Assembly: GCA_021842405.1 (NCBI GenBank)
Contig: JAKBZR010000008.1
Span: 1 to 59,290, forward strand
Direction of reading: 5' to 3'
DNA: 59,290 nucleotides
DNA from: a bacterium
GTDB taxonomy: Bacteria > Armatimonadota > Chthonomonadetes > Chthonomonadales > JAMCWF01
Part shown: positions 27,558 through 29,809 of the stretch, piece after piece
Layout of the letters: each line of letters starts with the position of its first letter
Numbering within the stretch: position 1 is the first letter of the stretch
Program-made: the position numbers and the translations under genes
The notes under the pieces: model-generated
What the model was told of the DNA's origin: nothing
The model's input: only the letters and a program-made list of their open reading frames with translations
Database searches by the model: none

Positions 27558-27620
27558 GAAATAGGAATAAAAGGTAAAATAGCCTATAGTATTGGTATGG
27601 AATACCGATAATTGATTTAA

Positions 27621-27752
27621 CCGAGATGTTCAGGGCAAACCCATAGAAATGTGGGGACGCAAAGCCGTGGGCCTAACAAAGCATCGTAAAGCTGGATACA
27701 ACCAGCGTATCTATGTTGGCGGTGCATTTATGGTAGCCAGGTTGCCGTCTTG
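27621..27752 (+). ncRNA. Cyclic di-GMP-I (GEMM-I) riboswitch
   Basis: The conserved blocks of the class I cyclic di-GMP aptamer appear in order: AGGGCAAACC (27632-27641), a P2 stem capped by a GAAA tetraloop (27646-27649), GGGACGCAAAGCC (27654-27666), GGCCTAA (27670-27676), a second variable stem, and GGTAGCCAGGTTGCC (27732-27746). It lies in the leader of flgM, ending about 55 bases before the ATG. Between aptamer and Shine-Dalgarno is a seven-base-pair hairpin (27759-27777) without a strong U-run, so control at translation or through an alternative fold seems more likely than simple termination. Confidence 0.92.
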
Positions 27753-27801
27753 ACTTGGAAGAGCAAGTGGTGCTCTTTACAATGAAAGGGGGCAAATAAA
27801 A

Positions 27802-28113
27802 ATGAAGATATCCGTTGACGAGGTTGCGCGCATTCAGGCACTAGCCCATGTGCAGCGGTCAAACGGAGCATCCACTAATGGAAATGGAACAGACGGTGTG
27901 GGGAATGGACATACGCCTGCAGCAAGTGTTGAAATATCTGCCCGCAGTCAAGAGATACAGCAGATTAAAAAGATCATCTCGATCTTGCCCGAAGAGCGGA
28001 ATGATCTGGTTGCTTCCCTTTCACAGCGTGTGAAATCGGGCAGTTATCACGTTTCAGGGTCTGACATTGCTGATTTAATGATGCGCAGAGCCATTGCGGA
28101 TCGAGTTCGATAA
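27802..28113 (+). CDS. flgM: FlgM-like anti-sigma factor
   Basis: The 103-residue protein has the FlgM layout: a short basic start (MKISVDEVARI), a disordered Asn/Gly/Thr-rich linker (about 20-45), then the conserved C-terminal helix pair VEISARSQEIQQIKKIIS with ERNDLVASLSQRVKSGSY and ADLMMRRAI. FlgM binds and inhibits the flagellar sigma factor FliA (sigma-28) until the hook is finished. No other flagellar gene is nearby. The Shine-Dalgarno AAAGGGGG precedes the ATG. A class I cyclic di-GMP riboswitch sits in its leader, and a strong terminator follows, so it is a single-gene unit under second-messenger control. Confidence 0.85.
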   Translation: MKISVDEVARIQALAHVQRSNGASTNGNGTDGVGNGHTPAASVEISARSQEIQQIKKIISILPEERNDLVASLSQRVKSGSYHVSGSDIADLMMRRAIADRVR

Positions 28114-28131
28114 CCGAATAGAGTAGTGATT

Positions 28132-28172
28132 AGGGGCGGGTAAACTGAAAGTGATTTACCGGCCCCTTTTTT
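28132..28172 (+). terminator. Rho-independent terminator of flgM
   Basis: A 13-base arm (28132-28144, AGGGGCGGGTAAA) pairs with 28155-28167 (TTTACCGGCCCCT) with one mismatch, ten-base loop, followed by a T-run to 28172. It separates flgM from parA. Confidence 0.92.
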
Positions 28173-28215
28173 ACGTCCGGGGATTGAAACCAAACGGGGT
28201 TATAGGAGCAGGATC

Positions 28216-28977
28216 GTGGGTCGAATTCACGCTATTGTAAACCAGAAGGGAGGTGTTGGCAAGACCACAACCGCAGTGAACGTGGCTGCTTATATGGCTG
28301 CAATGGGCGCCCGAATTTTACTCATTGATATTGATCCACAAGGCAATGCGACGACTGGTTTAGGCATTTCAAAGTTAAATTTATTGAATACCACCTATCG
28401 CGTAATTTTGGGTGAAGTCACGGCCGAACAGGCTATAGTCAATACAAAGGTTGCGAATCTGGATTTAATGCCCGCCACGCTGGATTTAGCAGGAGCAGAG
28501 CTGGAGCTAATTGCCCGAATTAGCCGTGAGACGTGTCTCCGAAACGCGATAGCGGGAGTTGCGACAGGTTATGACCACGTTATCATTGATACTCCGCCCT
28601 CTTTAGGTCTTTTGACCTTGAATGCATTGGTTGCAGCAGATGGGGCGATTGTTCCGATGCAGTGTGAATTTTATGCGATGGAAGGTGTGGGACAATTAAT
28701 CCGCACGATTGATTTGGTCAAGCAGCATCTTAACCCTGAATTAGTTATCCGAATGGTTATATTAACGATGGTTGATAATCGGATGCGGCTGACTCAACAA
28801 GCGGCGGAGGACATCCGTCGTTTTTTCGGTTCGAGGGTAGCGAAAACTCAGATCCCTCGCAATGTTCGTCTTTCCGAAGCTCCCAGCCATGGGGAGCCGA
28901 TCTTATTGTACGATGCAGGTTCACGCGGGGCGATTGCTTATCGTTCATTAGCAGAGGAGGTGCTTTCGCTTGGATAG
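28216..28977 (+). CDS. parA: Chromosome partitioning ATPase ParA (Soj)
   Basis: This 253-residue ParA/Soj ATPase has the deviant Walker A KGGVGKTTTAVN near residue 11, DIDPQGNATTGLG, and the Walker B-type IIDTPPSLGLLTLNAL. It lacks an N-terminal helix-turn-helix, as in chromosomal Soj rather than plasmid type Ia ParA. ATP-dependent dimers bind DNA nonspecifically and drive segregation of ParB-parS complexes. Start is GTG 28216 with AGGAGCAGG upstream. It overlaps parB by eight bases; a parS site lies 1.4 kb downstream, completing a chromosomal parABS locus. Confidence 0.95.
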   Translation: MGRIHAIVNQKGGVGKTTTAVNVAAYMAAMGARILLIDIDPQGNATTGLGISKLNLLNTTYRVILGEVTAEQAIVNTKVANLDLMPATLDLAGAELELIARISRETCLRNAIAGVATGYDHVIIDTPPSLGLLTLNALVAADGAIVPMQCEFYAMEGVGQLIRTIDLVKQHLNPELVIRMVILTMVDNRMRLTQQAAEDIRRFFGSRVAKTQIPRNVRLSEAPSHGEPILLYDAGSRGAIAYRSLAEEVLSLG

Positions 28978-29809
28978 ATCACGGTTGGGAAGAGGAATTG
29001 CATCGTTAATCCCGGGCGCAGAAAGCGCGCAGATATTGCCCATTGACAAAATTCAGCCCAATCCATTTCAACCTCGCACTCATTTTGATCCCGAGAAGTT
29101 CAAGGAGTTGGTGGATTCCATTCAACGTCATGGGGTGTTGGAACCGGTTTTAGTGCGCCCGGTTGGAGCTGATGAGTATCAGCTTATTGCAGGCGAGCGA
29201 AGGTATCGTGCAGCCAAGGAGGCTGGAATGAGCCACATTCCGGCGGTCTTTCGGCAGTGCGACGATGCCCAGATGGTAGAGCTCGCATTGGTTGAGAACG
29301 TTCAGCGCGAGGATATCAGCCCGATCGAATCGGCGGTTGCTTATCAGCGGTTGATGAAGGAGTTCCACTGGACTCAAGAGCAGGTTGCGCAAAGGGTTGG
29401 AAAGAGCAGGGTTGCGATTTCGAATACGATGCGCCTGCTTTCACTGCCAATCAGATACCAAGAGAGTGTTGATCGAGGTGAGGTTAGTGAGGGTCATGCG
29501 CGAGCGCTTTTGATGTTGAATGACCAAAAAATGTTGGATGAGGCATGGGATGAGGTAAAACGTCGTGGCCTTTCAGTGAGAGAGACTGAAAGGATGGTGA
29601 GGATGTTGCTGAATCCACCTCAAAAGGAGCCTCCCTCGTCCACCGAGATGCGGAACCCTGAGTTGAGAGCGTTGGAGGAGGAGTTGCAAAGCGGTTTGGG
29701 TACGCGGGTGCATATCGAGAAGATGTACTGGGGGTGGCGCTTATCCATTGACCTCTTTTCCGAGGAAGAGTTAACAGCACTGGCAGACCATCTATTGGCA
29801 AAGCGGTAA
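28970..29809 (+). CDS. parB: Chromosome partitioning protein ParB (Spo0J)
   Basis: The 279-residue protein contains the ParB N-terminal CTPase domain (IQPNPFQPRTHF, then the GERRYRA nucleotide motif), the ENVQREDISPIE segment, and a helix-turn-helix (EQVAQRVGKSRVAISNTMRLL). The C-terminal dimerisation domain has GTRVHIEKMYWGWRLSIDLF. ParB loads at parS and spreads as a CTP-bound clamp. Start TTG 28970 lies inside parA after GAGGAGG. Its stop overlaps the nudix start by one base. All functional residues appear intact. Confidence 0.95.
   Translation: MDRSRLGRGIASLIPGAESAQILPIDKIQPNPFQPRTHFDPEKFKELVDSIQRHGVLEPVLVRPVGADEYQLIAGERRYRAAKEAGMSHIPAVFRQCDDAQMVELALVENVQREDISPIESAVAYQRLMKEFHWTQEQVAQRVGKSRVAISNTMRLLSLPIRYQESVDRGEVSEGHARALLMLNDQKMLDEAWDEVKRRGLSVRETERMVRMLLNPPQKEPPSSTEMRNPELRALEEELQSGLGTRVHIEKMYWGWRLSIDLFSEEELTALADHLLAKR

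Follow-up and report, generated by a model that had tools for sequence, protein, structure and literature searches.

A predicted cyclic di-GMP riboswitch on the leader of the anti-sigma-28 gene flgM in Armatimonadota

The window, the whole stretch of 59,290 nucleotides analysed here, carries a c-di-GMP-I aptamer directly upstream of flgM, the gene of the anti-sigma-28 factor. It comes from a genome of the order Chthonomonadales, phylum Armatimonadota (3.5 Mb, 97% complete). The arrangement is best read as a negative feedback loop that acts on the flagellar sigma factor and is gated by c-di-GMP, and we give this reading a probability of roughly 0.78. The parts seen in the sequence itself are the aptamer, flgM, a promoter motif, a conserved potential pairing between an anti-Shine-Dalgarno (anti-SD) strand and the Shine-Dalgarno (SD) region, one FliA-like sigma factor, one FlgM and several GGDEF genes. 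From these we infer the identity of the ligand, the ON direction, the binding of FlgM to the sigma factor and the outcome for motility. In the proposed loop, sigma-28 would transcribe the flgM mRNA from the upstream sigma-28-type promoter. In the ligand-free state, the aptamer's 3′ strand would pair with the SD and block translation; with c-di-GMP bound, this strand would be held in the aptamer, leaving the SD free and allowing FlgM to be made. FlgM would then hold sigma-28 and bring down both the flagellar genes and its own mRNA. High c-di-GMP would thus lower flagellar gene expression, with the brake made only where sigma-28 is active.

The aptamer occupies positions 27624–27749 of the forward strand and matches Rfam RF01051 over the full model length with 68.8 bits (gathering score 35, E = 2e-11). 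It is the only RF01051 match in the 3.5 Mb genome, and in both sequence and structure it passes the cut-off of the c-di-GMP-I riboswitch family. Its position in a 5′ leader, followed by a platform that excludes the ligand-bound fold, is likewise that of a riboswitch, as predicted by folding. The flgM gene (27802–28113, forward strand, 103 aa) starts 52 nt beyond the aptamer end, and its product scores 49.9 bits against PF04316 (cut-off 25). The genome contains no second FlgM match; the family profile also matches the solved FlgM chains 9wsf_B and 1rp3_B. The initial annotation had placed a class I c-di-GMP aptamer ahead of flgM, and both identifications were borne out. FliA_WhiG sigma factors are represented by a single match over the cut-off (C99:15295-15966), and the flgM product is a FlgM family member: its domain scores above the cut-off, and the genome also encodes a sigma-28 partner. 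Seven GGDEF matches in the genome point to a capacity for making the ligand.

A sigma-28-type promoter is predicted on the forward strand at 27585–27611. It consists of TATAGTAT (27585–27592), an 11-nt spacer and ACCGATAA (27604–27611), has TATA in place of TAAA and scores 11.5 of 14 points against TAAAGTTT-N11-GCCGATAA; the aptamer follows after 12 nt. A TAAA-N15-GCCGATAA-like motif, characteristic of sigma-28, lies upstream of the start, as a promoter predicted from its score. The transcript start is expected at about 27617. It was claimed earlier that a start downstream of 27750 would speak against the riboswitch; the predicted one lies upstream of that position. A motif close to TAAAGTTT-N11/12-GCCGATAA is found 12–20 nt 5′ of the aptamer in most copies of the arrangement, reaching at least 10 of 14 points in 26 of 29 loci; the corresponding shares were 3% for shuffled sequences and 1.9% for other windows taken from these loci. 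The same motif occurs in this genome 141 nt before flagellin, 79 nt before a flgB-flgC-fliE-fliF-fliG operon and 66 nt before a fliL/fliM-like operon, where, flagellin, fliF and fliG aside, we assigned the gene names by reading the sequences. Sigma-28-type promoters on flgM are known in enterobacteria. Since such a promoter stands immediately 5′ of the aptamer, the putative riboswitch control is stacked on sigma-28 control and does not replace it. The initial annotation had regarded riboswitch control as notable against the usual control by sigma-28; the predicted riboswitch stands, and the contrast with sigma-28 does not.

The expression platform was studied by folding. In the minimum-energy fold of the window leader, the anti-SD strand UUGCC-G-UCUU (TTGCC-G-TCTT in the DNA, 27742–27751, forward strand), which overlaps the 3′ end of the aptamer and keeps its register in relatives, pairs with the SD region (AAAGGGGG and the overlapping GGCAA, 27785–27795, forward strand). 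The two are juxtaposed by a predicted inner hairpin, GGAAGAGC...GCTCTTT (27755–27782, forward strand), and the pairing is imperfect. As UUGCC is part of the aptamer, the SD-sequestering fold and the aptamer fold should be mutually exclusive. When the aptamer 3′ strand was held unpaired in the fold model, exposure of the SD clearly increased in 17 of 18 members of the order, the exception being G014, where the SD was buried in both modelled states. Because the sequestering helix uses the aptamer's own 3′ strand, the ligand-bound fold should free the SD, and a translational ON switch is the natural reading that the modelled leader predicts. The earlier suggestion that ligand turns the gene on thus gains support from the predicted fold.

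The anti-SD/SD pairing appears to be kept across the order, judging from sequence comparison. Within the order, aptamers linked to flgM have GCCGUC at the 3′ end, and the other aptamers of the phylum mostly have GCCGAA, a change of the 3′ end (GUC for GAA) that would fit pairing with the SD. The flgM SDs pair with their own aptamer 3′ ends with a mean of −13.6 kcal/mol, compared with −7.0 kcal/mol for the ends of other aptamers. Permuted pairings were as good as the real ones in 6 of 5000 trials within the order and 0 of 5000 across all 29 loci, both tests being inflated by relatedness. Column-wise covariation was weak (6 cells changed on both sides against 3.1 in shuffled data, 21/500), since most paired columns hardly vary. 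Two changes speak for the pairing: in G005 and G015 the SD variant GAAAGGGGC is accompanied by UCUUUC, and in G042 the helix is replaced by CGCUU/AAGCG. Outside the order, the platform is not clearly present in G041, G054, G050, G055 and the G033 group.

A survey of flgM leaders in relatives, proposed in the initial annotation, was carried out. Among the 61 genomes of the phylum that were sampled, FlgM was found in 40 and the aptamer in 38, and the aptamer stood directly upstream of flgM in 29. This recurrence argues that the arrangement is not due to chance. It is present in all 18 genomes of the order that have flgM, and in 11 further genomes elsewhere in the phylum. An order-wide search returned 31 genomes, all of them already in the sample, and the platform was assessed within this sample. 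The weak aptamers of G041 and G054 likewise precede flgM, which is a further argument against chance. The sole flgM of the order lacking an aptamer is a second copy in G019. This copy lies on contig C7 together with an additional FlhA and FliA, and the contig suggests a second flagellar system in that genome.

None of the flagellar families searched was found on the contig of the window. Flagellin, FliF, FliG and FliA are encoded on other contigs of the same genome; the earlier remark that no flagellar genes accompany flgM thus holds for the window and fails for the genome. A search for FlhA gave no match in this genome, which is 97% complete. Loss of flagella was considered as an explanation and rejected, given the matches to flagellin, FliF and FliG; the missing FlhA is probably an assembly gap. 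Two relatives present a different picture. G035 and G042 (98–99% complete) retain aptamer-flgM and a FliA-type sigma factor, and none of the four markers FlhA, flagellin, FliF and FliG was found in either. Since the module is retained without these markers, motility may not be its output in every case.

This observation supports a module that mostly serves sigma-28 targets outside the flagellum (pili or surface functions, for example), with flagellar control secondary or lineage-specific. In G042 the sigma-28-type motif precedes a prepilin-like operon and, at a distance of about 46 nt, a gene recognised by eye as GGDEF-EAL (L068, G042:C2:701500-705000). The latter arrangement could link sigma-28 to c-di-GMP turnover; these pilin and GGDEF-EAL targets are a lead, not a result. 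Against a mainly non-flagellar role are the motifs before flagellin and the flgB and fliL operons in the window's genome, which has a single FliA over the cut-off. The FliA-type sigma gene of G042 (L077, G042:C4:216500-225000) also has one in-frame TAA between its halves, which may reflect decay, an error or a split sigma factor. We find this explanation unlikely.

Slightly less likely still is an OFF switch, in which the ligand would lower FlgM and hence promote flagellar gene expression. The sequence alone is no proof against this direction, and there is a precedent in Cd1, a c-di-GMP riboswitch that acts as an OFF switch before the flagellar flgB operon of Clostridioides difficile (PMC6366702). 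However, the only conserved SD-sequestering helix that was found competes with ligand binding for the aptamer 3′ strand. A simple scan (loop limit 8 nt; the flgM terminator at 28132–28172 is absent from its list) gave no intrinsic terminator in the window's aptamer–flgM interval, which counts against OFF control and led us to reject a transcription-termination platform here. T-rich stretches in G035 and G049 hint at possible terminators in those genomes. The least probable of the alternatives is that the element senses another cyclic dinucleotide. The best match within the clan is the canonical RF01051, and the GGCAAA core, in which we take position 20 to lie from the Vc2 structure, is intact. 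This makes it very improbable that the ligand is, for example, 3′,3′-cGAMP, which is bound by a class I GEMM aptamer with a G20A change (PMC6274999).

In the proposed feedback loop gated by c-di-GMP, the parts are known and the wiring appears new; the closest known systems are as follows. Vc2 of Vibrio cholerae is a c-di-GMP-I (GEMM-I) riboswitch of the ON type. Cd1 of C. difficile is a c-di-GMP riboswitch before the flgB operon, which includes sigD (PMC6366702). The aptamer family is the same as in Vc2 and Cd1, and Cd1 also ties c-di-GMP to flagellar genes and SigD, whereas here the target is an anti-sigma factor, control is predicted to be translational and ON, the promoter is of the sigma-28 type and the loop would be closed. 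In the RsiG-(c-di-GMP)-WhiG switch, known from Streptomyces and Rubrobacter, the second messenger is bound directly by the anti-sigma protein, and the output in Rubrobacter appears to be type IV pili (PMC8325347). There, too, c-di-GMP acts on the anti-sigma factor of a sigma-28/WhiG-type sigma factor, whereas here the mRNA of a different anti-sigma factor, FlgM, would be the target. The FlgM-FliA checkpoint of enterobacteria and Bacillus shares the FlgM family protein and the sigma-28-type promoter on flgM, but a second-messenger gate on FlgM synthesis is predicted as an addition here. The open literature that was searched gave no earlier description of flgM under a c-di-GMP riboswitch.

If the loop operates as proposed, c-di-GMP would control the flagellar sigma factor through mRNA-level synthesis of its inhibitor, and feedback would ensure that the brake is produced only during sigma factor activity. 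Control of anti-sigma-28 by c-di-GMP would then have been reached differently by different phyla, through RNA here and through protein in Actinobacteria. The system offers a simple testable circuit for a phylum with few genetic studies. A broader and decidedly tentative extension, which we think more likely wrong than right, is a phylum-wide RNA-gated sigma-28/FlgM module that is ancestral in Armatimonadota, has been re-used, for example for pili, where flagella were lost, and parallels RsiG-WhiG.

Upstream of aptamer-flgM lie a transaldolase-family gene and a tRNA-Ser gene, and downstream of flgM are parA, parB and a NUDIX gene. The strong terminator reported earlier after flgM was confirmed as an intrinsic terminator at 28132–28172 on the forward strand (GGGGC-stem-GGCCCC and a T run, z = −3.0), which closes the gene. 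The position of parA, a chromosome partitioning gene, 3′ of flgM recurs in several families of the phylum (window 27802–29809; L024, L027, L044, L054). In several relatives, c-di-GMP-I aptamers occur as close pairs, some about 20 nt apart (L035, L036, L037, L043, L047).
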